Source: Streptomyces sp. NBC_00461
GTDB lineage: Bacteria; Actinomycetota; Actinomycetes; Streptomycetales; Streptomycetaceae
NCBI RefSeq assembly: GCF_036013935.1
Contig: NZ_CP107902.1
Location: forward strand, 5,241,001-5,305,000
Direction of reading: 5' to 3'
Length of the DNA: 64,000 nt
The notes under the pieces were generated by a model, which saw nothing but the letters and a program-made list of their open reading frames with translations, was not told the origin of the DNA and did no database searches. Shown one piece after another: positions 25,858 through 51,955 of the stretch (position 1 is the stretch's first letter; the number at the start of each line of letters is the position of its first letter). The position numbers and the translations under genes are program-made.

Positions 25858-26664
25858 TCACCGCAGGGCCCCCGCGCCCGCAGCCGAGAGATAGCGCTGG
25901 TCGGGGTTGTCCTGGAGCATCACGTGGTGGAGCGTCGTGGTGGAGGGGGACGGGGGGATGCCGAGGTCGTCGGTCATACGGCGGTGCAGGGACTGGTAGA
26001 CCTCCAGCGCGGTGGCCCGGCGGCCCGAGGCGTAGAGCGCCCGCATCAACTGGGTGTGCAGGTTCTCGTGGTACGGGTGTTCGGCGACCAGAGCGATGGC
26101 CTCCCCGACCGCCTCCTGGAAGCGTCTGCACAGCAGCAGCGCATCGATCCGCACCTCGCAGGCCGCGAGGTGCGCCTCGTTCAGCACCCGCGCCTGCACG
26201 GTGAGCCGACTGCCGTGCCGGACGTTCCCGAAGGGTGCCCCGCGCCACACGGCCAGTGCTTCTCCGAGCACCTCGGCGGCGGCGTGCGCCTCGCGCCTCT
26301 GCAGCAGGCCACGGGCATCGAGGACCAGCTGCTCGAAGCGGGGACGGTCCCATTCGTCGGGCCGCAGGCGCAGCACGTAGCCGTTGCCGTCGGTGACCAG
26401 CCGGTGTTCGGCGATCTCACGGGCGCTGGTGCCGGTGCCGGCGGCCAGCGCCTTGCGTATCGCCCCGATGTACGTCTGCAGGGCGGTGGTGGCGGTGCGG
26501 GGCGGCTCGCCGTCCCACACCTCGCTCAGCAGCGCCGGCACGGACACACGGTGGTTGGCCTTCGCCATGAGCAGGGCGAGCACCTGCCGCTGCTTGGGCG
26601 CGCGGGGGGTGACGTCACGCCCCTGCTCGCGGATGTCGATCGGTCCAAGGACACGGAACTCCAC
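25858..26664 (-). CDS. SARP-family (AfsR/ActII-ORF4-type) pathway activator
   Basis: A 268-residue protein with exactly the two domains of a cluster-situated SARP: an N-terminal OmpR-type winged helix (MEFRVLGPIDI...PKQRQVLALLMAKANHRVSV, about 1-95) and a bacterial transcriptional activation domain (RPRFEQLVLDARGLL to the end). SARPs bind direct heptamer repeats at about 11-bp spacing near -35 regions and recruit RNA polymerase to antibiotic genes. It sits at the edge of the biosynthetic cluster. No TTA (bldA) codon was noticed. The likely targets are the promoters around 42.5 and 44.4 kb. Confidence 0.93.
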   Translation of the reverse strand: MEFRVLGPIDIREQGRDVTPRAPKQRQVLALLMAKANHRVSVPALLSEVWDGEPPRTATTALQTYIGAIRKALAAGTGTSAREIAEHRLVTDGNGYVLRLRPDEWDRPRFEQLVLDARGLLQRREAHAAAEVLGEALAVWRGAPFGNVRHGSRLTVQARVLNEAHLAACEVRIDALLLCRRFQEAVGEAIALVAEHPYHENLHTQLMRALYASGRRATALEVYQSLHRRMTDDLGIPPSPSTTTLHHVMLQDNPDQRYLSAAGAGALR

Positions 26665-26725
26665 AGCCCCTCCTCAAGGTTGGGTGTCACCGGATGGCGA
26701 GCGGTGTACGGGCGAACGGATCGGC

Positions 26726-26753
26726 GGGAGCCCCGCGTCGCTGCGGGGTTCCC
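26726..26753 (-). terminator. Hairpin between IS701-type gene and SARP
   Basis: GGGAGCCCCGC, 6-base loop, GCGGGGTTCCC forms an 11-bp stem with one G-U pair, 57 bases beyond the stop of the transposase-like gene. It separates that gene from the SARP gene that follows on the same strand. Confidence 0.6.
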
Positions 26754-26809
26754 GTGGTGCTGTGGGGGGAAGGGCCGTCGATCGGCGGTCGCCGACCGGC
26801 ATACGGCGG

Positions 26810-28162
26810 TCAGCTGTCGCCCGGGGCCAGGCACACCTCGTGCCCGAGCCTGCGATGCGCCGAGGCGATGGAGACCAGCGTGGCGTGGCGGTGCCAGCCG
26901 GGGTAGGACCGCCCCGCGAAGTCGTGCAGGCCCAGTTCGGCCTCCGCGATCCCGACCCGAGCGGCGGTGGCGGAGCCGATGACCGCCAGGGCCTGTTGCG
27001 AAAGTCCCGTCGTCCGCCCGTAGGGCGGGCCCTGCGGCGGCATGGGGGTCCCGTCGTTCGGGCTGCGCCGAGAGTGGGGGAGCGTGTTCTCGGCATGCCG
27101 GGTGCAAGCCCTCGTACCGGACGTACTCGGGCCTGTGTCCGGTGCGGCGAGAGCATGTGCCGGGCGTCGCGGGGCTGGGGGCACCCCCTCTGGGGGAGGG
27201 ACTTTCGCAACACGCCCCGGGGTCAGGGCGCGCCACGCCGGGGGCAGGTTGGTCAGCCAGATCCGGTCGGGCTGTGGGCGTGCGCCGGTCCAGACGCCGA
27301 CCAGCAGGGCCGGGCGGTTCAGTGCCGGCAGCAGCACCCGTACGGTGCCGATCCGGGGCCGCCCGGGGGCGAGGGGGGCGGTGACGGCGGGCTGGGCGTG
27401 TCGCCGCAGCAGGGCGCCCGCCGGCTCCGGGGCTGCGTGGAGTGCTGCCGTATCGGCCGGGTGGGGCGCGGCGGCCGGGGCGAGCGACAGGGGCAGGCTG
27501 TCGGGCACGCCCACGACCCAGTCCAGACCGCGGGCCCCAAGGCCCTCGATCACGACCACGGCGTCGATGTGACCGTCGGTGTGGACGACCACCGGCGGCA
27601 TCTCGGGTGTGATCCGCGGCAGTTGGTCGGCGAGGGCGAGGCACAGATCGGCCGCGGTGGCATGACCGGTCGGCTCGGGGATGCGGGCCTGGTGCCGCAG
27701 CGCGGCGTCCTCGGTCCAGCGGCGAGGCAGGTACAGCCGCCAGTCCACGGAGAGGTCGCCGAGATCGCCGGAGAGGAACGCGCCCACGGCGAGCTGGCAG
27801 TTGACGGTACGTCCGAAGGCGGGCACGAAGCGTCGGTGGACGCCGGCGGACAGCTCGCCCCGCTTGGGGATGACCACGGGGGACAGCGTCCAGGCGTGCG
27901 CGGCGGTGTGCTCGGCGACCCAGCGGGCGAGCTCGGCGCGGACCGGGCGCCACCGCCAGGCGCTGTCGTTGACGAACTGCTGCAGCGACTGGGCCGCCGT
28001 CGGGGACGGCGTCACCGAGGCCGCTATGCGCCGCAGCGACTTCTTGCCCTGGGTGGCCAGAAGTCCCTTCAAGTAGACGCCGGCCCAACGCCGTTGGTCG
28101 GCCCGCGGCAGATGGGCGAAGAGCCGCTGGGCCGGCGGGACGTGCTCTGTGGCCGGATGCAT
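26810..28162 (-). CDS. IS701-type transposase-like protein carrying an in-frame MITE insertion
   Basis: A 450-residue protein related to DDE transposases of the IS701 group, with HLPRADQRRWAGVYLKGLL near the start, WRWRPVRAELARWVAEH, VVIPKRGELSAGVHRRF, and ELGLHDFAGRSYPGWHRHATLVSIAS near the end. Residues about 317-389 are encoded by a 219-base MITE-like element (26994-27212) that keeps the frame open, adding about 73 residues of Pro/Arg/Ser-rich sequence just before the conserved C-terminal block. No terminal inverted repeats of a full IS were found around it. Its promoter holds a GBL-receptor-like operator. It may be a domesticated regulator or simply a dead transposase. Confidence 0.75.
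   Translation of the reverse strand: MHPATEHVPPAQRLFAHLPRADQRRWAGVYLKGLLATQGKKSLRRIAASVTPSPTAAQSLQQFVNDSAWRWRPVRAELARWVAEHTAAHAWTLSPVVIPKRGELSAGVHRRFVPAFGRTVNCQLAVGAFLSGDLGDLSVDWRLYLPRRWTEDAALRHQARIPEPTGHATAADLCLALADQLPRITPEMPPVVVHTDGHIDAVVVIEGLGARGLDWVVGVPDSLPLSLAPAAAPHPADTAALHAAPEPAGALLRRHAQPAVTAPLAPGRPRIGTVRVLLPALNRPALLVGVWTGARPQPDRIWLTNLPPAWRALTPGRVAKVPPPEGVPPAPRRPAHALAAPDTGPSTSGTRACTRHAENTLPHSRRSPNDGTPMPPQGPPYGRTTGLSQQALAVIGSATAARVGIAEAELGLHDFAGRSYPGWHRHATLVSIASAHRRLGHEVCLAPGDS
26994..27212. mobile_element. MITE-like repeat, copy 2, inserted in transposase-like gene
   Basis: A 219-base element with perfect 15-bp terminal inverted repeats TGTTGCGAAAGTCCC and GGGACTTTCGCAACA. The core (27149-27168) matches the copies at 25.7 and 48.4 kb with three base changes. 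The 219 bases are 73 codons, so the host gene is not shifted. No target duplication is clear. It contains no gene of its own. Confidence 0.7.
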
Positions 28163-28191: not shown

Positions 28192-28217
28192 AAATATACA
28201 GAACATTCTCTATGTTT
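28192..28217. promoter_or_regulatory. Candidate ARE (GBL-receptor operator) upstream of IS701-type gene
   Basis: A 26-base A/T-rich imperfect palindrome; its halves are AAATATACAGAAC and (reverse strand) AAACATAGAGAAT, matching at 10 of 13 positions. It resembles the ARE sites bound by ScbR/ArpA-type receptors and shares AGAAC-N4-TCTATGTT with the second site at 31455. It lies 30 bases upstream of the transposase-like gene start, so that gene is a likely GBL-responsive target. Confidence 0.65.
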
Positions 28218-28389: not shown

Positions 28390-28986
28390 TCAGTGAGGGT
28401 CGTTGGGGGCGAGAAGGGTGCCCAGCGCCTTCAGGGCCTGGGTCAGGCCCTCCTCGGGACCGTCGCCGGTGATCGTGCGCACCGCGTCCGGGGCGGTGGC
28501 GGCGGCTTCGACGCCGAGCAGGACGTGGGAGAGCAGGGAGGCGGCCGCCAGCGGGGTCAGCCCGCCGTCCAGGCGCTCCTCGCGCCAGGCCCGCTCCAGC
28601 GCCTCGCGCAGGCCGGGGGCCCAGGAGTCGTACCAGCCGTGGTCGGCGGCGTGCCCCTCGCGGGTGAGCCGGGCGGCCGCACGGATGCTCTGCGTGGTGC
28701 GCAGGGCGTCGGCCAGTGTCAGCACCTCGTCGAGTACGCCCCGCAGTCCCGGTGCGGGGGCGGTGTCGAGCATCACCTCGCGGGTGGCGGTCGTGCCCGC
28801 TTCCTGGACGGCGTCGGCCAGGGCCGACTTGCTGGGGAAGTGGAAGGTCAGTGCGCCCATGGTGACACCGGCCGATCTGACGATCCGGTGCAGGGAGGTG
28901 CCGTCGTAGCCGTGCTCGGCGAATTCGGCGGCCGCGGCCCTGACGATCCGCTGACGGGTCTGCTCGGCCCTCTCCTGTCGCGCCAC
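28390..28986 (-). CDS. TetR-family regulator, GBL-receptor-like (pseudo-receptor type)
   Basis: A 198-residue TetR protein. The helix-turn-helix reads TRQRIVRAAAAEFAEHGYDGTSLHRIVRSAGVTMGALTFHFPSK, with the Phe/His-Phe signature shared by ArpA/ScbR-type receptors. The ligand domain (LRTTQSIRAAARLTREG, GWYDSWAPGLREAL) also fits that group. GTG 28986 has GAGGAGG upstream. It is the more divergent of the two receptor-type proteins here, so it may be a pseudo-receptor that senses antibiotics or intermediates rather than the GBL. It is divergent from the SDR gene. Confidence 0.8.
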   Translation of the reverse strand: MARQERAEQTRQRIVRAAAAEFAEHGYDGTSLHRIVRSAGVTMGALTFHFPSKSALADAVQEAGTTATREVMLDTAPAPGLRGVLDEVLTLADALRTTQSIRAAARLTREGHAADHGWYDSWAPGLREALERAWREERLDGGLTPLAAASLLSHVLLGVEAAATAPDAVRTITGDGPEEGLTQALKALGTLLAPNDPH

Positions 28987-29167: not shown

Positions 29168-29938
29168 ATGATCGAACAAGCGTGCGTAATGAGCGACCGT
29201 GTAGTCATGATCACCGGAGCTTCGTCGGGCATCGGCGCGGCGGCGGCACGTCTCTTCGCCGAGCACGGCGCGGCCGTCGTGCTCACGGCACGCCGCCAGG
29301 AGCAACTCGCCTCGGTGGCCGAGGAGATCGAGGCCAAGGGCGGCCGGGCGGCGTATGTCACCGGCGACATACGCCGTGGCGAGGACGTCGAACGGGTCGT
29401 GGACACCGCGGTGGAGCGCTTCGGCCGCCTCGACGCCGCCTTCAACAACGCCGGCCACGCGACGCTCGGCGTCGATCTGCACGAGATGTCGGACGACGAC
29501 TACGACACCGTCATGGACGTCAACGTCCGGGGCGTGTGGAACTGCATGCGCCACCAGATCCGCGCCATGCTCGGCACCGGTGGCGGCACGATCGTCAACA
29601 CCGCGAGCGTGGCCGGCCTCATCGCCACCGGCGTGGGCGCGCCCTACGTGGCCGCGAAGCACGCGGTGATCGGCCTCACCAAGGCCGCGGCGGCCTCGTA
29701 CGGGGACCGGGGCATCCGGGTCAACGCCCTGGCCGTGGGCAGCACGTTCACCGAGATGATGGAGTCGGTCGTCGAGCAGATGCCGGGCGTGGAGCAGGCG
29801 TTCTTCGCGCGTGCCGTCCAGAAGCGGTTCGCCGCCCCGGTCGAGGTGGCGCAGGCGGCGCTGTGGCTGTGCAGTGGTGCGTCGTCCTTCGTGACCGGCG
29901 CGACGGTCCCGGTCGACGGCGGCACGCTGGCCGTCTGA
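29168..29938 (+). CDS. SDR-family oxidoreductase (possible GBL/ketone reductase)
   Basis: A 256-residue classical short-chain dehydrogenase. Motifs are MITGASSGIG (cofactor), NNAG, the catalytic Ser in NTASVAG and YVAAK (Tyr/Lys). Arg/Arg after the second strand (LTARRQ) favours NADPH. Starts at 29168 or, seven codons later, ATG 29189 (MSDRVVMITG) are both possible. It lies divergent from one receptor-like gene and near the AfsA-type gene; in some Streptomyces a GBL-locus SDR reduces the ketone of the signalling precursor. This role is inferred from location. Confidence 0.88.
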   Translation: MIEQACVMSDRVVMITGASSGIGAAAARLFAEHGAAVVLTARRQEQLASVAEEIEAKGGRAAYVTGDIRRGEDVERVVDTAVERFGRLDAAFNNAGHATLGVDLHEMSDDDYDTVMDVNVRGVWNCMRHQIRAMLGTGGGTIVNTASVAGLIATGVGAPYVAAKHAVIGLTKAAAASYGDRGIRVNALAVGSTFTEMMESVVEQMPGVEQAFFARAVQKRFAAPVEVAQAALWLCSGASSFVTGATVPVDGGTLAV

Positions 29939-30026: not shown

Positions 30027-30752
30027 CTAACGGGCCGTCGGCACCGGTTCGTCGGCCCCCGTCGGCCACAACGTGCCGTCCGTCGCCTCCTCGTCCACCG
30101 TGCGCAGCAGCGTGTCGTCGATCTCGTCCAGTCCGTCCACCAGATGGCGTGCCCCGGCCTGACGCATCAGCTCGGCCTGGTGGCTGTGCTCGAACCGGCT
30201 GGGTCGGCCGATGAACGGTGCCCCGAGGGCCCTCGCCGCCTCGGCGACCCGGGCCACGTCGTCGATGAAGAGCACCTGCCCGTGCTCCAGCCCGAAGTGC
30301 GCGGTGATCTCCCGCAGTCCGGGGCGCACGTCGTTGGTGCAGATGTAGGAGGGAGGGGTGAACAGCCCGGCATACGCCCCGAGATGCTCGTCGAAGTGGG
30401 ACTTGGCCAGACCGCCGTAGCAGACCACGTCGAGCCCGGCGGCGCGCAGTCGCCGCAGCAGTGCCCCGGTTCCCTCGGTGACCTCCACGGGGTGGTCGGC
30501 GAGGTAGGCGGCACGCTCCTCGAAGTAGGCGGCCAGGGCCTCCTCGCCGGTCAGCGCCTGCGGCACCGCGGCCGCCATGGCGCGGCCGGCGTCGGCCTGC
30601 CGCTGCGAGAAGACGCGGCGCTCGACATCGGCCGAGTAGACGCCGCCGCGGCGGGTGACGAACCGGTGGATGAGCGGGCTGAAGGTGTCGTTGAGCAGGA
30701 CGCCGTCGATGTTGACGGCCGCCAGTCTCAACGTGTGGAGTCGGTTGGTCAT
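30027..30752 (-). CDS. HAD-superfamily hydrolase with altered nucleophile motif
   Basis: A 241-residue HAD-like protein. The later motifs are present: a Lys-containing segment (YGGLAKSHF), DVRPGLREI and the acidic motif VLFIDDVARV. Motif I, however, reads AAVNIDGVLL: the first Asp, normally the phosphate-accepting nucleophile of DxD, is Asn. It may be inactive as a phosphatase or have another role. Its ATG overlaps the stop of the GBL-receptor gene (ATGA), so the two are translated together. HAD phosphatases are known in furan/GBL signal synthesis (MmfP type), which makes the change notable. Confidence 0.8.
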   Translation of the reverse strand: MTNRLHTLRLAAVNIDGVLLNDTFSPLIHRFVTRRGGVYSADVERRVFSQRQADAGRAMAAAVPQALTGEEALAAYFEERAAYLADHPVEVTEGTGALLRRLRAAGLDVVCYGGLAKSHFDEHLGAYAGLFTPPSYICTNDVRPGLREITAHFGLEHGQVLFIDDVARVAEAARALGAPFIGRPSRFEHSHQAELMRQAGARHLVDGLDEIDDTLLRTVDEEATDGTLWPTGADEPVPTAR

Positions 30753-31435
30753 GATCGGGTTCCCTCCCCTTGGCCGGGCGCGCTCACGGACGTCCAAAGG
30801 GACCGAGCGCGCTCCTCGCTGTTCTCCATCCGGTCGAGAGCCGGGTCGGCGGCGACGCTGGGCAGCAGCAGGCGCCACATGTTCACCGTGCGGCGGGGGA
30901 GGTCGGCCCGCCTGGAGACGACTTGCGCGTACTCCTGCATGCCGGTGCACGCGCCGACGACGAACTCGGCCAGCTCCTCGATCCGCACGTGCTCCCGCAA
31001 CTCGCCCTGGGCGCGCGCCACTTCGAGGCAGTCCTCGAAGCTGCGGGCCCAGACCGTGTACGGCGTGGCGTCCTGCAGGCCGAAGGCGGCCTGCTCGCCG
31101 GTGAGCCGGACGCCGGCCCGCAGCAGCGGGTCGGCCTGGAGCGAGTGCGACCAGATGAGGGTGATGTCCACCAGGCGCTGCAGGCCGGTCGTGGGCACAT
31201 GCGGCTCGATGGTGCTGCGCTGGGCGTTCATCACCTCCATCGCGAGGCTCTGCTTGTCCTTGAAGTGGAAGTACAGGGCCCCCGCCGTCACGCCCGCACG
31301 CTGCAGGATCTTGTTGATCCCGGCGCCGGCGTAGCCGTACTCGTCGAAGACCTCCGCGGCCGCCTTCAAGAGCTGCTCTCGGGTCTGAATCGCGCGCTCC
31401 TGCTTGAGTGCGCGATTCGTGTTCGCTCGTGCCAT
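30749..31435 (-). CDS. Gamma-butyrolactone receptor, ScbR/ArpA-type TetR repressor
   Basis: A 228-residue TetR repressor of the GBL-receptor group. The DNA-binding domain reads REQLLKAAAEVFDEYGYAGAGINKILQRAGVTAGALYFHFKDK, with YFHF shared by known receptors. The ligand domain has WSHSLQADPLLRAGVRLTGE, including the conserved Trp region. It is divergent from an afsA-type synthase gene with a palindromic operator between them (31455-31480), the classical self-regulating arrangement. Binding of the GBL should release the operator and switch on the synthase and cluster regulators. Confidence 0.92.
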   Translation of the reverse strand: MARANTNRALKQERAIQTREQLLKAAAEVFDEYGYAGAGINKILQRAGVTAGALYFHFKDKQSLAMEVMNAQRSTIEPHVPTTGLQRLVDITLIWSHSLQADPLLRAGVRLTGEQAAFGLQDATPYTVWARSFEDCLEVARAQGELREHVRIEELAEFVVGACTGMQEYAQVVSRRADLPRRTVNMWRLLLPSVAADPALDRMENSEERARSLWTSVSAPGQGEGTRS

Positions 31436-31454
31436 GGCTGCACCCCGGTCTCGA

Positions 31455-31480
31455 CAAGAAAAAGAACGTCCTCTATGTTA
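31455..31480. promoter_or_regulatory. Candidate ARE between receptor and AfsA-type gene
   Basis: An imperfect palindrome with halves CAAGAAAAAGAAC and (reverse) TAACATAGAGGAC, 20 bases upstream of the receptor start. It shares AGAACRTYCTCTATGTT with the site at 28192. It would serve autoregulation of the receptor and control of the divergent synthase. Confidence 0.65.
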
Positions 31481-31551
31481 CTGGCTGTGGTGCGGCTCCG
31501 CCAGTTCGTGGGAGCAGCGCATGTCGATGCGGGAAAACAGGGGGATTCCAC

Positions 31552-32481
31552 ATGAACGAGATGGTGACGGCTGCTGGTTCGAGATCGGCCCGGGTCGCGA
31601 AGGCCCTCGTCCACAAGCACGACGCAGGCCAGGTACTGCTCTCGGGCCTGAAGCGCCTGGCGGAGGACGAGTTCCTGGTCGCGGCCGACTGGACGGACAC
31701 CGGCGATCTCCTGGCCACCGGGGACCGCCGCGAGGACGGCGCCGTACTGCTCACGGAAACGATTCGGCAGGCCTTTCCGCTGCTGTCGCACGCCGGTTAC
31801 GACGTCCCGTTCGGCCACCGTCTGCTCTGGAGCGAGTACCGCTACGCGCTCAACCTCAGGACGCTGCGCGAGGCGGGCATCGGCGGCCGGCCCGATCTGC
31901 ACATCCGCTGCTACGACGTGGTCCGCCGCCGCGGCCGGGTCTCGGCCCTGTCCCTGAACATCACCGTGCTGCGCGACGGCGAGCAACTGGCCACCGCCCA
32001 CACCCGGTTCACCATTCAGCCGCCCGCCATCTACGAGCGGCTGCGCGGCTCCTGCGGCGACGCCCACCGCATGCTGGAGCTGGCCCGCAGCCGCCCGCTG
32101 CCGCCCCCGGTCTCCGGCGCCGGCGAGGAGTTCCGGGACGTGGTGCTCTCACCCACCGACGCGACGGACCGCTGGCAGCTGCGGGTCGACACCCACCACC
32201 CGATGTACTTCGACCACCCCAGCGACCACGCCCCGGGCATCCTCCTGCTGGAGGCGGCCAAGCAGGCCGTGCGCACCCTGCGGCACCCCCGGGTCGGAGT
32301 CGCCGAGGCGATGGAGACCGTCTTCCACCGCTACGTCGAACTCGACTCCCCCTGCTGGGTGGACGCACAGCAGCTGCCCGACGATCAACTCGGCCGTGCG
32401 CGTTTCCTGGTGACGATGCATCAGGAGGGCATGCTGTGCTTCACCGCACTGGTGTCGGTCGCGAAGGAGCAGACCGGCTGA
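31552..32481 (+). CDS. AfsA/ScbA-type gamma-butyrolactone synthase
   Basis: A 309-residue protein with the two AfsA hot-dog repeats. Motifs are LVHKHDAGQVLLSG at the start, RQAFPLLSHAGYDVPFGHR, TRFTIQPPAIYERLR, and in the second repeat VDTHHPMYFDHPSDHAPGILLLEAAKQ, the hallmark of the family. It condenses dihydroxyacetone phosphate with a beta-ketoacyl-ACP to start GBL synthesis. It faces the receptor gene across the ARE. Its tail overlaps the convergent HAD-IB gene by 41 bases, so the opposing transcripts interfere or are antisense to each other there. Confidence 0.93.
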   Translation: MNEMVTAAGSRSARVAKALVHKHDAGQVLLSGLKRLAEDEFLVAADWTDTGDLLATGDRREDGAVLLTETIRQAFPLLSHAGYDVPFGHRLLWSEYRYALNLRTLREAGIGGRPDLHIRCYDVVRRRGRVSALSLNITVLRDGEQLATAHTRFTIQPPAIYERLRGSCGDAHRMLELARSRPLPPPVSGAGEEFRDVVLSPTDATDRWQLRVDTHHPMYFDHPSDHAPGILLLEAAKQAVRTLRHPRVGVAEAMETVFHRYVELDSPCWVDAQQLPDDQLGRARFLVTMHQEGMLCFTALVSVAKEQTG

Positions 32482-33181
32482 CGTCCATCACCCGGCCGAC
32501 CCCCGGCAGCGTGCCTCCGCCCACCCGGGCGACATGGGCGCCGAGCACCATGTCGTCGCCGACGGCGACGGGATGGCCCACGGAGCGCAGGAGGTCGAGG
32601 TCGGAGGCGTGATCGGCGTAGGCGGCGGCGCGCGACGGGGACACCGCGCGCCGCCGCATCAGCGTGCGCGCCAGCCGGCCCTTCTCGACGCCGATGACCG
32701 GGCGCTCCACCAGACCCGTGCAGTACCCGCCGACGTACTCCGGCTCGCTGCACAGGATCTCGTCGGCGCCGAGCAGCTCCGCGACCGGCTCCAGACACGG
32801 CCGGAACGAGCCCGACACCAGCACGGTCAGCGCGCCCTTTTCCCGGTGCCGGCGCAGGGCGGACACCACCGGCTGATGCAGCAGCGTGCCGGTGGCCAGC
32901 TCCGCGTCGAACCAGGCGCGGCCGTGTGCGAACAGCTCCTCGCGCGGGCGGTCCGCGTACAGGCGGTAGTACTCACGGTTGGTGACCAGCCGTGAGACAC
33001 CCGCCGCCGACCTGCGTCGCAGCGTGCCTGCCGCCTCCTCGTAGGCGGACGGCGGCAGACCGCGTTCGCGGTAGTGGAACTCCAGGAAGCGGAACATGCT
33101 CTTGACGTTGATCAGTGTCTCGTCGACGTCGAAGAAGGCGATCTCGACGGGGGCGTTCGGTGAGCCGGGGACAGCGGTCAT
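32441..33181 (-). CDS. HAD-IB family phosphatase (SerB-like)
   Basis: A 246-residue HAD subfamily IB hydrolase. Motif I FFDVDETLI (DxDxT) is intact, motif II is VLVSGSF, the Lys is in GVEKGRLA and motif III is AYADHASDLDLL. Members act on phosphoserine or similar phosphates. It is the last gene of the ten-gene operon. A role in removing phosphate from an AfsA-derived butenolide phosphate is attractive, because the neighbouring HAD at 30027 has lost its nucleophile, but it could equally serve the cluster product. Confidence 0.87.
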   Translation of the reverse strand: MTAVPGSPNAPVEIAFFDVDETLINVKSMFRFLEFHYRERGLPPSAYEEAAGTLRRRSAAGVSRLVTNREYYRLYADRPREELFAHGRAWFDAELATGTLLHQPVVSALRRHREKGALTVLVSGSFRPCLEPVAELLGADEILCSEPEYVGGYCTGLVERPVIGVEKGRLARTLMRRRAVSPSRAAAYADHASDLDLLRSVGHPVAVGDDMVLGAHVARVGGGTLPGVGRVMDVSRSAPSRPTPVR

Positions 33182-33264: not shown

Positions 33265-33268
33265 GGGA

Positions 33269-35015: not shown

Positions 35016-35981
35016 TCAGTAGCGGCTGCCGGTGGCGGCGGGGGCGGTGTCCAGGTCCCGCACATCCCGCTCGGTCAGGCGCAGTTCGGCCGCCGCCAGG
35101 TTGTCCGCCAGATAGCGGGGCTGTTTGGTGCCGGGGACGGGGACGACGTGGTCGCCCTGGGCGAGGGTCCAGGCCAGGGCGACCTGGGCGGCGGTGGCGC
35201 CGTGCCGGGCGGCGACCTTCTCCACCGCGTGCGTGATGCGCAGGTTGGCGGTGAACGCCGTCCCCGCGAAACGGGGGTTGGTGGCCCGGAAGTCGCCGGC
35301 CTCGAAGTCCTCGGGCCGGGTGTAGCGGCCGGTGAGGAAACCCCGGCCCAGCGGTGCGAACGGCACGAAGGCGGCGCCGTGTTCGGCGCACCAGCCGGAG
35401 ATCCCGGAGTCGGGGTCGAGCGGTTCCCTTGTCCACAGGGACAGTTCGGACTGCACCGCCGCCACCGGATGGACGCGGTGGGCGGCGTCGGCCTGCTCCC
35501 GGGTCACCTCCGACAGCCCGAGGTGGCGCACCTTGCCCGCGCGCACCAGCTCGGACAGCGCGCCCCAGGACTCCTCCAGCGGTACGGCGGGGTCGACGCG
35601 GTGCAGGTAGTACAGGTCGATGACGTCGACGCCGAGCCGCCTCAGGGAGGCGTCGGCCGAGCGCCGGATGTGCTCGCGGGAACCGTCGCGGCTCAGGGTG
35701 CGGGTGGTGAGGTCGTCCACGACGATGCCGGTCTTGGTCGCGACCACGGCGTCGCCACGGCGTCCGGCGAGGGCGCGGCCGACGAGGATCTCGTTGTGAC
35801 CCGCGCCGTAGGCGTCGGCCGTGTCCAGCAGAACCGGCCCGGCGTCCAGGGCTTGCCGGATCACCGCGACCGAGACCGTGTCGTCGCGCTGGGACTCGGC
35901 ATAGCCCCAGCTCATTCCCATGCACCCGAGGCCGACGGGGTGGACGTCGAATCCGGTCGGGCCGAGGCCACGCGTGTTCAC
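35016..35981 (-). CDS. Aldo/keto reductase
   Basis: A 321-residue AKR with the catalytic tetrad visible: DTADAYG (Asp, Tyr), VVATKTG (Lys) and YYLHRVD (His). The C-terminal cofactor region reads VPVPGTKQPRYLADN. GTG 35981 with GGAAG upstream is preferred over a start 17 codons earlier. It is part of the ten-gene operon and probably reduces a carbonyl of the product or an intermediate with NADPH. A related AKR (61859), sharing the [14 protein letters not shown] region, is encoded 26 kb away. Confidence 0.92.
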   Translation of the reverse strand: MNTRGLGPTGFDVHPVGLGCMGMSWGYAESQRDDTVSVAVIRQALDAGPVLLDTADAYGAGHNEILVGRALAGRRGDAVVATKTGIVVDDLTTRTLSRDGSREHIRRSADASLRRLGVDVIDLYYLHRVDPAVPLEESWGALSELVRAGKVRHLGLSEVTREQADAAHRVHPVAAVQSELSLWTREPLDPDSGISGWCAEHGAAFVPFAPLGRGFLTGRYTRPEDFEAGDFRATNPRFAGTAFTANLRITHAVEKVAARHGATAAQVALAWTLAQGDHVVPVPGTKQPRYLADNLAAAELRLTERDVRDLDTAPAATGSRY

Positions 35982-42712: not shown

Positions 42713-44331
<1,619 letters not shown>

Positions 44332-44551
44332 GCCTTGTCCTCCCATCCGGACGCCCTCTGGACCGAGGCCGCCCGCAAGAAGGGTTCGGGGCCCTGGGCA
44401 ATGCCTGACTCAAGCCGTGAAAAAATCGCCGACTTCTATTCCGGGCCTTGAGTGAAAGGCAGGCCGGTTGTGAGGGAAAAGCGGTCCGGAACTTGAGTGG
44501 CCCCCTCGGACGATGTTCCCGACCGTCGTCGGAATATCGAGAGGGCAGATC
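44332..44551. promoter_or_regulatory. Divergent promoter region with repeated CTTGAGT motif
   Basis: This 220-base region must hold the promoters of both main operons. CTTGAGT occurs three times: reversed at 44408-44414 and forward at 44447-44453 and 44492-44498; the two forward copies extend to CTTGAGTG. A fourth copy is upstream of the second AfsA-fold gene (42485). They may be binding sites for the cluster SARP, though the spacing here is not the textbook 11 or 22 bp. Confidence 0.45.
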
Positions 44552-45499
44552 ATGGTCGCGCACGTTCACGGGTCCACAGCCGAGCCGCGGTACGCCGTCC
44601 TGTTTCCCGGACAGGGGGTGCAGCGCCCCGGTATGGGCGAGCCGTGGCGGGACACGGCGTCCTGGGAGTTCGTCGACTCCGTCTCCCGGGCCTCCGGCTT
44701 CGACGTCGCCGAGCTGCTGCTGACGGCGGACCAGGAGACCCTGTCCCGCACCGACCACGCCCAGATCTCGGTGTTCACCGCGTCCCTGCTGGCCTGGTCG
44801 GAGTTCCACCGGCACGATCCGTTCGCGCAGGTGGTGGCCGTCGCCGGGCACAGCCTCGGCGAGTACACGGCGCTGGTGGCCGCCGGGGTGCTGTCGGTGA
44901 CGGACGGCGCCTGGCTGGTGGGCGAGCGGGGCCGGGCCATGGCCGAGGCGGCCCGCGCGCGGCCCGGAGCGATGGCCGCCTTGATGGGCGGCGACCCGGA
45001 GCAGGTCACGGCCCTGGTGGCGGAGGCTCGCCGGGACGGCGGCGACCTGTGGGTGGCCAACCACAACAGCCCCCAGCAGACGGTGATCGCCGGCAGTCGT
45101 ACGGCCGTGGAGGCCACCGCCGCCCGTGCGGCCGGGGCCGGCCTGCGCTACAGCGTCCTGCCGGTCAACGCCGCCTGCCACAGCCCCTACATGGAGCCCG
45201 CCGGCACGGCCCTGCGCCGGGCCCTGGAACTGACGGGCTTCGCGACCGGGGCGGTCCCCGTGGTGGCCAACGTGGACGCCCGCGCCCACCAAGGTGGCGG
45301 CCACTGGCGTGACCTGTGCGCCCGTCAGCTGGTCAGCCCGGTCCGCTGGGCGGACACCCTGCACGTCCTCCACGAACAGCTGGACTCCACCGCGTTCCTG
45401 GACATCGGTCCCGGCGCCACCCTCGCCGGCCTGGCGCGGCGCGCCCTGCCGGAGGTCCCCTCCCACCGCTTCAAGGCACCGGTCCCGCACGCGGCCTGA
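44552..45499 (+). CDS. Malonyl-CoA:ACP transacylase (FabD-like)
   Basis: A 315-residue malonyltransferase. The start AVLFPGQGVQRPGMGE, the nucleophile in VAGHSLGEYTALVAAGVL (Ser), HNSPQQTVIAG and NAACHSPYM (catalytic His) are all present. It loads malonyl groups onto the ACP; the obvious partner is the ACP domain of the KAS III-ACP fusion. ATG 44552 has GAGGG upstream. It opens the plus-strand unit, divergent from the carboxylase gene, so extender supply and loading are co-regulated. Confidence 0.94.
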   Translation: MVAHVHGSTAEPRYAVLFPGQGVQRPGMGEPWRDTASWEFVDSVSRASGFDVAELLLTADQETLSRTDHAQISVFTASLLAWSEFHRHDPFAQVVAVAGHSLGEYTALVAAGVLSVTDGAWLVGERGRAMAEAARARPGAMAALMGGDPEQVTALVAEARRDGGDLWVANHNSPQQTVIAGSRTAVEATAARAAGAGLRYSVLPVNAACHSPYMEPAGTALRRALELTGFATGAVPVVANVDARAHQGGGHWRDLCARQLVSPVRWADTLHVLHEQLDSTAFLDIGPGATLAGLARRALPEVPSHRFKAPVPHAA

Positions 45500-45527: not shown

Positions 45528-48368
45528 ATGACAACGATTCAGGAGATACCCGTCGGTCGAGCGGCCGAGGCCGAAGTGGAGGTCGCGCGTGAGGCCGGCA
45601 ACGGGGTCGAGGCCGGAGAAGCAGCCGACCTGGGCGGGCTGTTGGTGCGGGCGGCGGCACGGTTCCCCGAGCACGGGGTGCGCTACCTCTCCGGGGAGCG
45701 AACCCTCGGTCACACCTATCCGCAGCTCCTGGCGGAGTCGCTTCGCCTGCTGAACGCCCTGCGCAGGAAGGGAGTCCGTCCGGGCAGCGTCGTGGCGCTG
45801 CTGCTGGAGCGGCCCGAGGACTTCGTTCCGGCCCTCTGGGCCTGCCTGCTCGGCGGCATCCCCGTCTGCCCAATGGTCCCCGTCCGCGATGATCCGCAGC
45901 GCTGGACAGCCCAGTTGAGCCACATCGACACGCTGCTCGACGGCCCGCTCGTGATCACCGACCGCCGCACGCGCGAGGAGCTCCCCGCGGTCCAGGGGCT
46001 GTCGGTCACCACGATCGAGGACCTGGCCCCGACCGCGACCGAGACGGACGCGCGCACGGTCACGCCGACCGCCGCCGCCCCGGACGACACCGCCCTCCTG
46101 GTCCTCACGTCCGGTTCCACCGGCGCCGCCAAGGCGGTCCGGCTCACCCACGGAAACCTGCTGGCCGCCATGGCGGCGAAGGCCGGTACGCAGTCGCTCA
46201 CCCCGGCGGACGTGACGCTCAACTGGATCTCCTACGACCATGTCGCCGCACTGCTGGAGGCACACCTGCTGCCCCTGTCCGTGGGGGCCGTGCAACTGCA
46301 CACGTCACCGGAGTCGGTACTGGCCGACCCCACGCACTTCCTCGAATTGATCGACGCCCACCGGGTGACGATGACGTTCACCCCCAACTTCCTGCTGGGG
46401 CTGATCAACAAGGCCCTCGACCAGCTGCAGCACCCTCTGCCGCTGGACCTGTCCTGCGTACGGCACATCATCTCCGGCGGTGAGGCGAATCCGGTCGCCA
46501 CGGGTGTCGGCTTCCTCGACCGGACGGCCCCGTACGGACTGCACCGCGGGGCCCTGTGGCCCGCGTTCGGGATGACCGAGACCTGCGCCGGCAGCATCTA
46601 CAACCGGGAGTTCCCCGACGCCGACCACGGCGGCGAGTTCGCCTCGGTCGGCCGGCCGGTCAGTGGGCTGCGGATCAGGGTCGCGGCTCAGGACGGCGAG
46701 GTCGGCGAGGTCGGCGAGGTGCAGCTCACGGGACCGATGATCACGCGCGGGTACTGGAACAACGAGGAGGCGACCGCGGCCGCGTTCACGGCGGACGGCT
46801 GGTTCCGCACCGGTGACCTCGGCCGGCTCGACGGGGAGCGGCTGACCCTCGTGGGGCGGAGCAAGGACAGCGTCATCGTCAACGGCGTCAACTACTACAG
46901 TCACGAACTGGAGTCGGTGCTCGGCGACCTCGACGGCATCGAGAAGTCCTTCGTCGCCGCGTTCCCGACCCGCCCGGTGGGCGGCGACACCGAGCAGCTC
47001 GCGGTCGCGTTCGCCGTCACCTCCGACATGGCCGGCGACGAGGCGGCGCTCCACCGTCTGATCGTCGCGGTCAGGAACAGTGTCGTACTGCTCTGGGGGT
47101 TCCGCCCGGCGCTGCTGCTGCCGCTTCCCAAGGACGCCTTCCCGAAGACGAGCCTGGGCAAGATCCCGCGATCGCTCATGCGGCGTCGTCTGGAGGCCGG
47201 TGACTACGCAGGGCACCTGGAGTCCGTCCAGGAGCTGATCACGCGTCAACTCGGCGGCCACGTCACCCCCGTGGGCGCGGTCGAGGAGACGCTCACGGAG
47301 CTGTACGGCGAGCTCTTCGACGCCGAACCGTCCCTGATCAGTGCCACCGCGAGCTTCTTCGACCTCGGCGGGACCTCGCTGGACATCCTGCGCCTCAAGA
47401 GCCTGGTGGCCCAGCGCTTCCCCGGCGCCGACCTGCCGGTCCTCGCGATCCTCACCTCACCCAGCGTCCGCGAACTGGCCGCACGCATCGAGGCGGGCCG
47501 AAGCGGCGAGAACGCCCCCTACGATCCGGTCGTCGCGCTGCAGACCAGCGGGGACGGGACGCCGCTCTTCTGTGTCCACCCCGGCGTCGGCGAGGTGCTG
47601 GTCTTCGTGAACCTGGCCAAGTACTTCGTGCACGAGCGGCCCTTCTACGCCCTTCGGGCGCGCGGGTTCGACCCGGGGGAGAAGCCGTTCGAGAGCTTCG
47701 CGGAGATGGTGCGCGTCTACGCGGACGCCATCCGCTCCAGGCAGCCGCACGGCCCCTACGCGATCGCCGGGTACTCCTTCGGCGCGGCGGTGGCCTTCGA
47801 GGTGGCCAGGCTGCTGGAGGCGGAGGGCGAGCGGGTGGACTTCCTCGGCAGCTTCAACCTGCCCCCGCACATCAAGTACCGCATGGACGAGCTCGACTTC
47901 GTCGAGACCGCGGTCAACCTGGCGATGTTCCTCGACCTGGTCCCCGAGCGGCAGGCGAAGACGCTGCCGGCCGAGTTGCGCCCGCTGACCAGGCAGGAGC
48001 AGCTCGCCCGTCTGATCGCCCTCGCCGCCCCGCACCGGCTCGCCGAACTCGATCTGGATCTTGACAGGTTCGCCGCCTGGGCGGACCTCGCCGACGGCCT
48101 GACCAGCCTCGGCCGGACCTACCGGCCCTCCGGCACGGTCGCGCGGATGAGCGTCTTCTACGCCGTCCCGCTGCGCGGCAGCAAGCAGGACTGGCTCGAC
48201 AACGAACTCAGTCGCTGGGAGGACTTCACCCGCGAGGCACCCCGATACCTCGATGTGCCCGGTGAGCACTACACCCTCATGGGGCCGAAGCATGTGGCCG
48301 CCTTCCAGTCGGTCCTGCGGGCGGAACTCGACCGGTCGCTGGGAGCAGGCGGTGCACCCCAGTGCTAG
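45528..48368 (+). CDS. A-T-TE tridomain synthetase of atromentin/polyporic-acid type
   Basis: A 946-residue NRPS-like protein without condensation domain. Adenylation motifs are [18 protein letters not shown] (A3), FGMTETCAG (A5), the RTGDLGRL region (A7) and [12 protein letters not shown] (A10). The carrier Ser is in [14 protein letters not shown], and the thioesterase has [14 protein letters not shown] and a late GEHYTLMG His. The A domain segment [18 protein letters not shown]...[10 protein letters not shown] resembles enzymes that activate arylpyruvates and dimerise them to quinones or furanones. Size and order match that family (about 950 residues). ATG 45528 has AAGGAAGAGG. Its stop TAG lies in a CTAG that was the target of a MITE. 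Confidence 0.88.
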
Positions 48369-49474
48369 TGCCCCGGCAGGCAACGTTCGCCCCGTCGCGA
48401 CGCCCGGCACGCACTCTCGCCGCACCGGGCACAGACCCAAGTACGTCCAGTACGAGGGCCCGCACCCGGCACGCCGAGAGCACGCACCGGACGCCGCTCC
48501 TTTGCGGGCAAACGTTGCCTGCCGGGGCACTAGCCGGGAAGAAGATCCTGATCACCGGGGCGACCGGCCTGGTGGCGCGCACCGCGGCCGAGACGCTCGC
48601 GGAGCACAACGAGGTGTGGTGTCTTGGCCGCTTCTGCGACCCGGAGGCGGAGCGGCGGTTGAAGGACCGGGGGATACGGACGTGGCGCTGGGACATGGCC
48701 GTGGACGAACTCGACGGTCTTCCCGACGACTTCACGCATGTCCTGCACGCGGCGGTCGAGCGCGGCGGCAGTGACTTCGAGGAGGTCGTGGCGGTGAACT
48801 CCGTCGCCACCGGCCGTCTGATGGCCCATTGCCGCAGCGCCGAAGCCTTGCTGTTCGTCTCCACCAGCGCGGTCTACGCGCCCCAGGCACCGGCCCACCT
48901 GTACACCGAGGACGACCCGCTCGGCACCGTGTCGGCATGGCTGCCGACGTACCCGGTCGGCAAGCTGGCCACCGAGGGCGCCGTGCGTGCGCTCGCCGTG
49001 ACGCTCGGCCTGCCCACTACCATCGCCCGGCTCAACGTCGCCTACGGCCCCCATGGGCACGGCGGGCTCCCGGTGATCCTGCACCGGCAGATGCTCGCCG
49101 GGAAGCCCATCGCCGTACCCCACGGAGAACAGCACTACTGCTCCCCGATCCACACCGACGACATCGCGCGGCACGTGCCCCGGCTGTGGGCCGCGGCTCG
49201 GACCCCCGCGACCGTCGTGAACTGGGGAGGGGACGAGGTCGTGGGCGTGCGCGACCTCATGACGTACGTCTCCGAACTGACCGGCGTGCCGGCCGACTTC
49301 GTGCCGAGCGACGTCACCCGTGCCGTCGTCGCGTACGACGGCACCCGCCGCAGGAGCATCGCCGGTGCCTGCGGAACGTCCTGGCGCGACGGCGTCCGGC
49401 AGGTCCTGGAGGCGCACTTTCCCGGCACCGTCGAAGCCCGCCCCGACAGAGAGATCTCCCACCGTGACCAGTGA
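48362..49474 (+). CDS. NAD-dependent epimerase/dehydratase with MITE-encoded N-terminus
   Basis: An extended-SDR protein. The real domain starts [22 protein letters not shown] (NAD motif), with catalytic YPVGKLATE (YxxxK) and Ser in VSTSAVYAP. The only plausible start is GTG 48362, which leaves 370 residues. Codons 3-57 come from the inserted element 48365-48533. Removing 165 bases gives GTG CTA GCC GGG AAG AAG, a normal start overlapping the synthetase stop. The insertion is 55 codons long and has no stop in this frame, so the gene may still be expressed with a foreign 55-residue leader. It may act on the synthetase product or on a sugar nucleotide. Confidence 0.8.
48365..48533. mobile_element. 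MITE-like repeat bounded by CTAG, copy 3
   Basis: A 169-base element with perfect 23-bp terminal inverted repeats that start with CTAG (CTAGTGCCCCGGCAGGCAAC, then GTT). CTAG is present on both sides and was probably the target. The shared core lies at 48399-48418 on the minus strand. It inserted in the 7-base overlap GTGCTAG of two genes. No transposase is encoded. Confidence 0.85.
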
Positions 49475-50489
49475 AACGTCCACCGAACCGCAGGTGCTGG
49501 GGCTACTGGAACGCTCACTGAGCGCCGGCTGCGCGGCCTCGTTGCGCGCGGCCGTGAAACTCGGCCTGGCCGACGTCCTCGGCGACACCCCGGCGAAGGC
49601 GGACAGCCTCGCCGTGGCGGTCGACGCCGACCCGGACGCGCTGCGGCGACTGCTGCGCTCGCTCACCGGCCACGGTGTCTTCGCCGAGACCTCCGAGGGC
49701 CGGTTCGTCCACACGGAGCTTTCGCGACTGCTGCGCGAGGACGCCCCGGATCGGCTCGACCAGCTGGTGCTGTGGATGACCGAACCATGGACCTGGGAGC
49801 TGTGGGGCCGTCTGGACGAGTCGGTGCGCACCGGCAAGGACGTGTTCGCCGACACGTACGGCGGTGAGTTCTTCGAGCACGTGCACACGGTCTGGCCTCA
49901 GTCCGCGGCGGTGTTCGACCGCGCCATGACCCAGGCCAGCAGGCAGTCCGCCGCGGCCGTCGCGAGCGTCCTGCCGCTGTCCGGCGCGCGGACCGTCGCC
50001 GACATCGGCGGCGGACAGGGCTTCCTGCTGGCCTCGCTCCTGGAGCGCCACCCCGGCGTACGGGGGATCCTGTTCGACCGGCCCGACGTGGTCGCGGGCG
50101 CTGACGCCCGGTTGCGCGAAGGCGGTGAACTGGCCGACCGGGTAAGGCTGTTGGCCGGAGACTGCCGCGAGCAGCTGCCGGCCGACGCCGACGTGTACGT
50201 CTTCAAGAACATCCTGGGGATGAACGACGAGGACGCCGCCGTCGTGCTCGGCAACCTCGTGCGGACGGCGCCCGCCGGAGCCCGGGTGGTCATCGTGGAG
50301 AACCTCGTCGACAACGGCCCGGGACAGCGGTTCAGCACCGCGATGGATCTGCGGATGCTGCTCACCGTCGGCGGGCGCAAGCACACCCGGGAGAGTCTGC
50401 TCGGGCTCGTGGAGCGGGCGGGCCTCGTCGTCCGGGACGTACGGCCGGTCAACTCGTACCAGCACGTGATCGAGGCGACGACGCCATGA
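49464..50489 (+). CDS. SAM-dependent methyltransferase, O-MT fold, altered catalytic motif
   Basis: A 341-residue protein of the plant-type O-methyltransferase/RdmB group, with an N-terminal dimerisation domain ([23 protein letters not shown]) and the SAM motif [17 protein letters not shown]. The segment that normally holds the catalytic His (HDW) reads [12 protein letters not shown], so the general base is missing. It could still methylate, or act like the RdmB-type members that hydroxylate or decarboxylate. GTG 49464 lies within the last 11 bases of the epimerase gene and has GAGAGA upstream. It is followed, with overlap, by the monooxygenase. Confidence 0.85.
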
Positions 50490-51955
50490 CCGGTACCGCC
50501 GATGTCCTGGTGGTGGGCGCGGGGCCCACCGGCCTCCTCCTGGCCGGGGACCTGGCCGCGGCCGGGGTGCGGGTCACCCTGCTGGAGCGGCGGGAGCACG
50601 CCGCTGACCCCGGCATGACCCGTGCCTTCGCGGTGCACGCCCGCACCCTGGAGGTACTGGACGCGCGCGGCCTCGCCGACGAACTGGTCGCCCTCGGCAG
50701 GACGGCACCCGTGGTGGGGCTCTTCGGCAGGATCGAGCTGCACCTGCACCGGCTGCGCACCCGCTTCCCCTTTGTGCTGATCACTCCGCAGTACCACGTC
50801 GAGGAGCTGCTGGAACGGCGTGCGCTCGCCGCCGGCGTGCGGATCGTGCGGGGCGCCGAGGCCGTGGCGCTGAGACAGCGGGCCGACGGCGTCGACGTGG
50901 ACACGGCGGCCAAGGGCACCTTCGGTGCCTCGTACGTGATCGGATGCGACGGCGTGCGCAGCGCTGTGCGCCGGCTGACCGGGATCGCCTTCCCCGGCCG
51001 CTCTGTGGTGCGTTCGGTGATGCTGGCCGACGTCCGGCTGCAGGAGGTGCCCGTCGACGCGGTGACCACCAACTCCAACAAGTACGGCTTCGCCTCACTC
51101 GTGCCCTTCGGCGACGGCTGGTACCGCGCGATCGGCAGGATCGCCGGCGACGACCGCCCCGATGACGCACCCGTGGTGGCCGAGGAACTGTCCGGCCTGT
51201 TGCGCCGCGTCCTCGGCTCCGACCATGGCATGCACGACCCGCGCTGGATCTCGCGCTTCCACAGCGACGAGCGGCAGGCGGTCCGCTACCGCGAGGGCCG
51301 GGTGCTGCTGGCGGGAGACGCCGCGCACGTCCACTCGCCCGCCGGAGGCATGGGAATGAACACGGGGCTGCAGGACGCCGCCAACCTGGGTTGGAAGCTG
51401 GCCGCGGTCGTGCAGGGCCGGGCCGGGGAGCCGCTGCTCGACTCCTACGAGGCGGAGCGCCACCCGGTCGGGAAGCAGGCGCTGCGGGTCTCCGGGGCGA
51501 TCACCCGAGGAGTGCTGAACGCCCCGGGCAACGGCCTGGTGCGACAACTCCGGGAGGTCGCCCTGCCGTTGCTCTCCCTGGCGAACTCGCTCACCGATGC
51601 CGGGGAGCACCTGCTCTCCGGCATCGGCATCGCCTACCCGTCCCCGCCCGGCAGCCACCGCCTCACCGGCCGCCGGGCCCCCGATCTGCGGATCGCGGGC
51701 GGGCAGCGGCTGTACGAGGTGCTGCGCGACGGCCGTTTCGTCCTGATCACCAGAGGCCACCCGGTACCCGAGACGGACCGGCTGCGAGTAGCCGCCCCCA
51801 CCGGCACCCTGCGTACCACCCTCCTGATCCGCCCGGACGGCCACATCGCCTGGGCCGCCGACACCCCGCACCCCGAGCAACTGCACGCGGCGCTGGAACG
51901 CTGGCCGCTAGGAGCACACCGACGCGGGCACAGGTCCGGGCTGCACCGCTGTTGA
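50486..51955 (+). CDS. FAD-dependent monooxygenase, end of plus-strand unit
   Basis: A 489-residue class A flavin monooxygenase. Motifs are VVGAGPTGLLLAGDLAAAG, VIGCDGVRSAVRRLTG and LLAGDAAHVHSPAGGMGMNTGLQDAANLGWKL, with a short thioredoxin-like C-terminal domain (FVLITRGHP...LIRPDGHIAW). It is related to, but distinct from, the enzyme at 38588. Its ATG overlaps the methyltransferase stop by 4 bases. It should oxidise the ring of the product released by the A-T-TE enzyme. It is the last recognisable gene of the cluster. Confidence 0.92.
   Translation: MTGTADVLVVGAGPTGLLLAGDLAAAGVRVTLLERREHAADPGMTRAFAVHARTLEVLDARGLADELVALGRTAPVVGLFGRIELHLHRLRTRFPFVLITPQYHVEELLERRALAAGVRIVRGAEAVALRQRADGVDVDTAAKGTFGASYVIGCDGVRSAVRRLTGIAFPGRSVVRSVMLADVRLQEVPVDAVTTNSNKYGFASLVPFGDGWYRAIGRIAGDDRPDDAPVVAEELSGLLRRVLGSDHGMHDPRWISRFHSDERQAVRYREGRVLLAGDAAHVHSPAGGMGMNTGLQDAANLGWKLAAVVQGRAGEPLLDSYEAERHPVGKQALRVSGAITRGVLNAPGNGLVRQLREVALPLLSLANSLTDAGEHLLSGIGIAYPSPPGSHRLTGRRAPDLRIAGGQRLYEVLRDGRFVLITRGHPVPETDRLRVAAPTGTLRTTLLIRPDGHIAWAADTPHPEQLHAALERWPLGAHRRGHRSGLHRC

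Follow-up and report, generated by a model that had tools for sequence, protein, structure and literature searches.

A probable composite gene cluster in Streptomyces sp. NBC_00461 with a butenolide-type module beside a terphenylquinone-type cassette

Two separable modules at one locus

We analyzed a 64-kb stretch of the Streptomyces sp. NBC_00461 genome (bases 5241001-5305000 of a single contig of 10.37 Mb; "the window" below, numbered from its first base), in which an earlier note made from the sequence alone had described an unassigned biosynthetic cluster. We found that this cluster is probably composite, with two biosynthetic modules that can be separated, and that its gene set probably represents a butenolide/butyrolactone-type module on the left placed side by side with a terphenylquinone-type module on the right. 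The left block ends in a gene for a malonyl-CoA:acyl carrier protein (ACP) transacylase (MAT); the right block, or cassette, consists of genes for an adenylation-thiolation-thioesterase (A-T-TE) synthetase, a TerB homologue, an O-methyltransferase (OMT) and a FAD-dependent monooxygenase (FMO2). We lean towards two co-regulated products of these modules under one control circuit rather than one hybrid product, because both modules stand apart elsewhere and the genes from the SARP-type (Streptomyces antibiotic regulatory protein) activator to FMO2 are each found with one module alone.

Genes were called from codon usage, and 30 proteins of the window were scanned against Pfam and 20 against NCBIfam. 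The components named in the earlier note were all present as family or profile matches in the window, and, as it had stated, neither a chain-length factor nor a modular polyketide synthase (PKS) was found among the 30 Pfam-scanned proteins. These proteins included a single KASII-type protein, so that the pair of ketosynthase and chain-length factor that marks a type II PKS was absent among them. The composite had been thought to match no known cluster, and literature searches, including one on S. coacervatus, judged mainly by abstracts and made without a curated cluster collection, gave no known product or matching characterized cluster, nor are we aware of one; searches of plasmid records with the KSIII-like protein (KS3like), AfsA2 and A-T-TE returned no record above 80% identity.

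The separability of the modules was examined in the ten close, MAT-bearing left blocks that were fetched: those of the window, S. coacervatus, G013, Streptomyces sp. SID10853, S. beijiangensis (G275), A1277, Streptacidiphilus pinicola, NRRL F-5126, SID12501 and G154, which lacks AccB (G numbers denote genomes of relatives, and G000 the genome bearing the window). The named close relatives are Streptomyces and one Streptacidiphilus. The cassette stood behind MAT in two of the ten blocks only, those of the window and S. coacervatus; the other eight had no aromatic genes there, with at least 5.7 kb past MAT covered in each. Six of these eight cassette-free blocks, including that of G154, could be read from MAT to the phosphatase gene HAD2, and those of S. 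beijiangensis and Streptacidiphilus pinicola only from MAT to KASII, where the contig ends; protein identities were mostly 53-97%. Behind MAT, S. beijiangensis has an AMP-ligase-like open reading frame (ORF) that is 31% identical to A-T-TE. In the A-T-TE search G013 gave nothing at E≤1e-100, G275 was not among the 32 genomes with a match, and the match in G154 lay 1.8 Mb from its left block. Looser relatives of the left block were found in G227, G004, G591, S. himastatinicus, S. tateyamensis, Actinokineospora and Williamsia. Conversely, G239 and G656 carry the cassette with neither AfsA nor AvrD beside it, and every gene in the stretch from SARP to FMO2, to which this comparison was confined, also occurs in some relative that has one module and lacks the other.

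These results, together with A-T-TE motifs of the arylpyruvate-joining type, spoke against the single pathway joining an acyl chain to a ring that the earlier note had proposed. Separate products of two operons, which that note had itself named as the finding that would count against it, are what we favor, though they are not proved.

The cassette recurs beside butenolide-type synthase genes

Searches were made with FMO2 in 392 genomes of the genus and 394 of the family, and with A-T-TE in 295 genomes, these samples overlapping. Eight genomes carried the cassette, which with S. coacervatus gave nine loci, and A-T-TE was 79-93% identical among seven of the nine. Seven of the nine loci were informative, as the G327 contig starts 0.7 kb before A-T-TE and the S. 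coacervatus locus duplicates the window. An AfsA gene or an unrelated AvrD gene lay 3-6 kb from A-T-TE at five of these seven loci, the window included (AfsA in G000, G004, G591 and G042; AvrD, with 279 bits to PF05655, in G033), versus none of 31 control A-T-TE loci, whether judged by called genes or by six-frame and tblastn searches. The KSIII-like gene and KASIII were likewise absent from all 31 control loci. Fisher's exact test gave p = 4e-5 for this difference, 0.0014 without the window and with G004 and G591 counted as one, and 0.0034 when, in addition, the controls were collapsed at 90% identity (22 groups), under a neighborhood criterion fixed after three loci, the window among them, had been seen. 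The control windows measured 20 kb in 27 of the 31 cases and less in four, three of them showing less than 6 kb on one side of A-T-TE (2.7, 3.1 and 5.2 kb), and G591 and G656 were searched across wider stretches than the controls. The joining of GBL-type (gamma-butyrolactone) and synthetase genes reported in the earlier note stood as a matter of neighborhood, but not as one acyl-chain-on-ring pathway.

Because of this neighborhood statistic, mere chance appears an unlikely cause of the arrangement. The cassette might have drifted in behind MAT within a cluster-rich stretch with no functional tie to it, which would fit its presence, among the close left blocks, in a single lineage, that of the window and S. 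coacervatus, and the set of AfsA, HAD and P450 genes in G042 may be a separate signal system; we nevertheless consider such an accident improbable. AvrD, moreover, was present in 22 of 295 genomes, and its place beside the G033 cassette is therefore unlikely to be due to chance.

The layout of individual loci bears on a further alternative, in which the locus makes one hybrid product, a methylated or hydroxylated terphenyl or an open precursor of it being joined to, or captured by, a reactive butenolide, with a shared enzyme or with none. The G033 locus (L066:11834-17834) has genes for AvrD, AAA_28, KASIII, ACP, HAD, AAA_28 and alcohol dehydrogenase (ADH), followed by the cassette, all in the same orientation. 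The G004 cassette is the last part of a row of lactamase-fold, ADH, mutase and B12-binding genes that is divergent from the AfsA row, on whose side a further ADH gene lies; A-T-TE overlaps the gene of the B12-binding mutase subunit by 4 bp, and this divergence of the two rows parallels the layout of the window. In G591 the genes match those of G004 in size and order, a likeness judged from these two features rather than by scanning. The AfsA proteins linked to the cassette, furthermore, are spread over three places in a single tree. It is conceivable that a portable cassette without a TerC-type gene was repeatedly recruited beside AfsA pathways of several clades, and beside pathways with the unrelated AvrD, because the products are chemically joined as aryl-quinone butenolides, and within such a hybrid an acyl chain on a ring is a possible product. 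We hold both this recruitment and the hybrid product itself to be doubtful, given that the cassette is missing from most close left blocks, that the genes from SARP to FMO2 occur with either module by itself, and that G239 and G656 carry the cassette with no AfsA or AvrD within the distance used. If true, it would define the aryl-quinone butenolides as a new hybrid class whose assembly needs neither a modular PKS nor a conventional multimodular nonribosomal peptide synthetase.

Returning to the two-product reading that we prefer, the position of the cassette beside lactone-type genes in several strains suggests that the two products are formed together and may also be used together. One cassette paired with non-homologous butenolide-type synthases offers a testable sign of a functional link between classes usually kept apart. 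It also yields a genomic rule for finding such clusters, namely A-T-TE loci that lack TerC and carry OMT and FMO genes, and it singles out AfsA proteins whose probable role is to make an end product instead of a signal. Against a general rule of linkage, G656 had no AfsA or AvrD match in the fetched stretch, which reached the contig end.

In the same genome (L114/L115), a ferredoxin reductase gene and A-T-TE overlap by 4 bp, and the ORFs opposite A-T-TE are very large and match ketosynthases; these are probably a modular PKS, which would make another polyketide partner without AfsA. G239 has an AfsA gene about 11 kb from A-T-TE with UbiA- and nitroreductase-like neighbors, which we did not count as support. 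This gene is part of a row (L080:1008-5648) that also encodes a reductase of the male-sterility type, an NDK-like protein, a prenyltransferase resembling UbiA and a nitroreductase, and this AfsA, too, may be biosynthetic.

The right block resembles terphenylquinone cassettes but lacks TerC

All four cassette genes lie on the plus strand. A-T-TE (45528-48368; PF00501, PF00550 and PF00975; 351 bits to McyG) is followed by the TerB homologue (48572-49474; 382 bits to PDB 6nd7/6d2v), whose start may lie upstream, and then by OMT (49464-50489; PF00891, 109 bits on the shorter ORF 49554-50489) and FMO2 (50486-51955; FAD_binding_3, PF01494, 278.5 bits). Starts were placed at 45528 for A-T-TE (946 aa) and at 49464 for OMT (341 aa). 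With these starts MAT and A-T-TE are 28 bp apart, OMT begins within the last 11 bp of TerB, and FMO2 begins within the last 4 bp of OMT; because of this tight spacing the right block would form one operon with MAT.

The earlier note had classed the synthetase as of the aromatic 2-oxo-acid type, and in its motifs A-T-TE comes very close to the enzymes of loci whose genes follow the ech/dat/ter order. It had made no mention that the following gene is a TerB homologue, which points to the type of pathway. DatA and EchA convert phenylpyruvate to polyporic acid, enzymes of this type joining two arylpyruvates, according to PMC9379647. The right block is probably a TerC-less variant of a terphenylquinone cassette, an assignment based on the TerB match and on the controls of the same gene order, which, rather than EchA and DatA themselves, supplied the sequences compared.

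A small gene of 132-172 aa stands directly after TerB at 23 of the 31 control loci and at none of the nine cassette loci, where OMT is found instead. From its position and length we regard it as the counterpart of TerC/EchC, using a search model built from the 23 control genes and not a match to the limonene-epoxide-hydrolase (LEH) family. Among the controls, two have no recognizable TerB, and in six the place of the small gene is taken by one of about 650 aa. G239 has a weak match to the TerC-type small gene about 7 kb upstream, and the matches of the window genome to PF07858 (limonene-epoxide hydrolase) lie about 4 Mb away. Only three A-T-TE positions (306, 743 and 889) are fixed differently in 42 cassette-clade sequences and in 29 of the 31 controls, 35 of the 42 being database proteins placed by identity (77-90%) alone, some of which probably duplicate fetched loci; the other segments of the adenylation, carrier and thioesterase domains that were displayed are close between the two groups. 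A separate 979-aa A-T-TE, 72% identical, occurs in G046 (L099), where none of its neighbors matches TerB, OMT or FMO.

A probable butenolide-type pathway in the left block

We take the left block to be, in all probability, a butenolide/butyrolactone pathway served by a dedicated small synthase of the fatty-acid type; the fatty-acid-synthase-like chain builder recognized in the earlier note was borne out by matches for KASIII, ACP, KASII and MAT. Apart from MAT (44552-45499, plus strand; PF00698, 124 bits), which is the last left-block gene in the relatives, its biosynthetic genes lie on the minus strand.

AfsA2 (41363-42412) belongs to the butenolide-synthase family, matching PF03756 in two stretches (147.7 bits) and scoring 189.0 bits with the ScbA model NF041195, below the cut-off of 200. 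It probably serves a product pathway, as suggested by this score and by its distance from AfsA1 in the AfsA tree (one FastTree run of 55 sequences, comprising every fourth of 120 proteins, 30 in all, and the AfsA of further loci, with the root placed at AfsA1 by choice). A PDB search with AfsA2 gave no matches at E≤1. According to PMC7756379, an AfsA-like domain has been demonstrated to condense 3-ketothioesters with dihydroxyacetone phosphate. A third AfsA gene lies in the same genome outside the window (G000:C1:7559132-7559935).

That the left block makes only another autoregulator and no end product is very hard to credit. The A-factor synthase family, to which AfsA2 belongs, is known mostly for signals in Streptomyces. 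However, a ScbA/ScbR pair scoring above curated cut-offs is already present, AfsA2 falls below the ScbA cut-off, and a dedicated carboxylase together with MAT, a pair of ketosynthases, an ACP, a monooxygenase and an acyltransferase is more than is known from any signal pathway.

The gene next to AfsA2, KS3like (40326-41366), encodes the protein that had been listed as an unusual KAS III and that we identified as a member of the DpsC/ChlB3/CerJ family. In pairwise alignments its Cys113, His299 and Asp304 line up with the triad of ChlB3 and CerJ, the second His of the FabH type is absent, and Arg268 corresponds to Asn in ChlB3, Val in CerJ and the first His in DpsC. The roles of the triad residues in KSIII-like acyltransferases follow PMC9573744. 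KS3like is probably an acyltransferase rather than a condensing enzyme, and its candidacy as a second condensing enzyme was rejected on alignment alone.

KASIII (37548-38591; TIGR00747, 327 bits, above the cut-off of 292), in which catalytic C-H-N segments were seen by eye in the alignment, is fused in frame to an 87-aa ACP frame (37284-37547). The fusion (37284-38591) was found only in the window and S. coacervatus; the stop between the two frames is kept in all seven AccB-carrying relatives besides S. coacervatus and in G154. The fusion looks like a recent loss of a stop codon, and the notion of an old, inventive enzyme was rejected, as relatives other than S. coacervatus keep the stop. The fused protein and free ACP may both be made, because the ACP retains its own ATG and a stretch resembling a ribosome-binding site.

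The remaining left-block genes encode KASII, which is FabF-like (36043-37287; TIGR03150, 443 bits, below the cut-off of 494; PRK07314, 429 bits, above 387), FMO1, a FAD-dependent monooxygenase (38588-40276; FAD_binding_3, PF01494, 223.5 bits), AKR, an aldo/keto reductase (35016-35981; PF00248, 240 bits), a tandem 3-hydroxyacyl-CoA dehydrogenase (3HCDH; 33269-34981; PF02737 and PF00725, two stretches each) and HAD2, a HAD-IB phosphatase matched in several of the looser relatives (32441-33181; PF12710, 128 bits). The C-terminal 3HCDH unit keeps HFFNP in the window and nine relatives, whereas in the first unit the position that we matched to the catalytic His by eye holds Arg, both in the window and in the eight relatives that were readable. 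AccB, an acyl-CoA carboxylase beta subunit (42709-44331; PF01039, 648 bits; PDB 7w5u, 876 bits), has Ile at the PccB D422 position in the alignment, as does chain 1xnw, which we take to be the D422I mutant of PccB. Ile at this position favors acetyl-CoA. Beside it lies a 69-aa ORF (42503-42712), labeled AccE-like by us rather than by a family search, and an ORF 60-76% identical to it adjoins AccB in six of the eight AccB-carrying relatives.

Regulatory genes and candidate binding sites

The GBL- and SARP-type control described in the earlier note was recovered. AfsA1, a ScbA/BarX-type signal synthase (31552-32481, plus strand, with a longer ORF at 31408-32481; NF041195, 281.7 bits versus a cut-off of 200), and ScbR2, a ScbR-family GBL receptor (30749-31369, minus strand; NF041196, 200.8 bits, above the cut-off of 150), both scored as expected of a GBL autoregulator synthase and receptor. 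A second ScbR-like TetR regulator (28390-28986, minus strand), possibly a pseudo-receptor, gave 136.6 bits with NF041196 and fell below that receptor cut-off. The SARP-type activator is encoded at 25858-26664 (minus strand; PF03704, 128 bits; PF00486, 36 bits). Between the two TetR-type genes lie an SDR reductase (29189-29938, plus strand; PF13561, 207 bits), perhaps of the GBL signal pathway, and the HAD-like hydrolase HAD1 (30027-30752, minus strand; PF00702, 25.3 bits, below the cut-off of 26.4).

A candidate operator resembling an autoregulatory element (ARE) lies between ScbR2 and AfsA1 (31456-31479; 8 of 12 positions complementary). Its 17-base core scored 16-17 of 17 in six relatives (L021, L035, L036, L038, L040 and L051). 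The same core, as found at 31463, recurs in an ARE-like palindrome (28192-28217; 10 of 13 positions complementary) upstream of the SARP gene and a DDE_5 gene, this palindrome being seen in one relative only (L021). The DDE_5 transposase-like gene (26810-28162) sits between SARP and the palindrome at 28192; it is not a very recent insertion, because G013 has the same order.

In the gap between the divergent AccB and MAT genes (44332-44551), CTTGAG[TC] boxes occur on both strands in the window and in all eight aligned AccB-carrying relatives, and likewise in the AfsA2/MAT gap of G154, which makes nine relatives in all. TTGAGTN occurs six times in the 64-kb window, each time between genes by the called starts, three times in the AccB/MAT gap and once upstream of AfsA2. 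From the heptamer repeats known for this regulator type, we regard CTTGAG[TC] and TTGAGTN as putative SARP boxes.

A proposed scheme and the points against it

From the observed gene content, conservation, separability, recurrent neighborhood and conserved boxes, we infer the following enzymatic steps, regulatory chain and products. AccB/AccE and MAT would supply malonyl-ACP, from which KASIII and KASII with ACP would build a short beta-ketoacyl-ACP. Condensation of this chain by AfsA2 with dihydroxyacetone phosphate, or with some similar keto-triose that is phosphorylated, would give a phosphorylated butenolide from which HAD2 would take the phosphate; AKR and the active half of 3HCDH would perform reductions, FMO1 an oxygenation, and the KSIII-like protein would move an acyl group, by transfer and not by condensation. 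In the right module, A-T-TE would join two arylpyruvates to a terphenylquinone of the polyporic-acid type, which TerB would reduce, and OMT and FMO2 would methylate and hydroxylate in place of a TerC-type step. The GBL signal made by AfsA1 would release ScbR2 from its operators so that SARP is expressed, and SARP would activate the AccB/MAT promoter in both directions, and hence the cassette behind MAT as well.

Several observations count against two co-regulated products or against details of this scheme. The neighborhood of cassette and butenolide-type genes is predicted by a joint product too, and G239 holds both the cassette and a left cluster of the G004 type, unlinked, on different contigs. 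KS3like scored best with DpsC, not with ChlB3 or CerJ. The A-T-TE substrate may be shifted, as position 306 lies within the GGEANP segment of the A domain and position 743 near the thioesterase serine. On the regulatory side, L025 of G154 lacks the ARE-like core, an ARE consensus had no matches, and the candidate boxes are putative sites chosen by eye from script output, on sequence grounds only.

Comparison with known systems

The echoside, daturamycin and terfestatin systems (EchA-B-C, DatA-B-C and TerA-B-C) share with the window an A-T-TE gene followed by a reductase gene of the TerB/EchB type. They differ in that the window has OMT and FMO2 instead of a TerC-type gene after TerB, and a butenolide-type module before. 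The dat order was taken from PMC9379647. As in the Streptomyces GBL systems (AfsA/ScbA-ScbR with SARP), the window has AfsA1 and ScbR2 above their cut-offs, a SARP gene nearby and, as a candidate operator, a conserved palindrome between AfsA1 and ScbR2, but its second AfsA stands in a row with KASIII, KASII and ACP.

The gladiostatin PKS contains an AfsA-like phosphorylated-butenolide-synthase domain and shares the condensation of a 3-ketothioester with dihydroxyacetone phosphate by an AfsA-family protein in a product pathway (PMC7756379), whereas AfsA2 is free-standing beside discrete enzymes of the fatty-acid-synthase type, and its reaction is a predicted one. In the methylenomycin pathway, which includes the ACP MmyA, MmyC and the AvrD-like MmyD, a butenolide-forming synthase is proposed to act on a beta-ketoacyl-ACP (PMC12593393). 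ACP, ketosynthase and butenolide-forming synthase are thus common to both, and the G033 relative has AvrD too, but the window uses AfsA2 and adds KASII, AccB and the KSIII-like acyltransferase; membership of the methylenomycin type was rejected, as the window genome has no AvrD match. ChlB3 and CerJ share the aligned Cys-His-Asp with KS3like (117 and 93 bits), but KS3like scores highest with DpsC (149 bits), in which Ser takes the place of the Cys.

Other genes beside the cassette

DUF2252 was not found in the searched stretches of G004, G042, G239, G327 and G656, nor at any of the 31 control A-T-TE loci. A gene for a protein of this family adjoins the cassette in G033 (L066:3713-5155) and G591 (L112:13695-15125), and one lies 7.4 kb past the cassette in the window (59348-60766).

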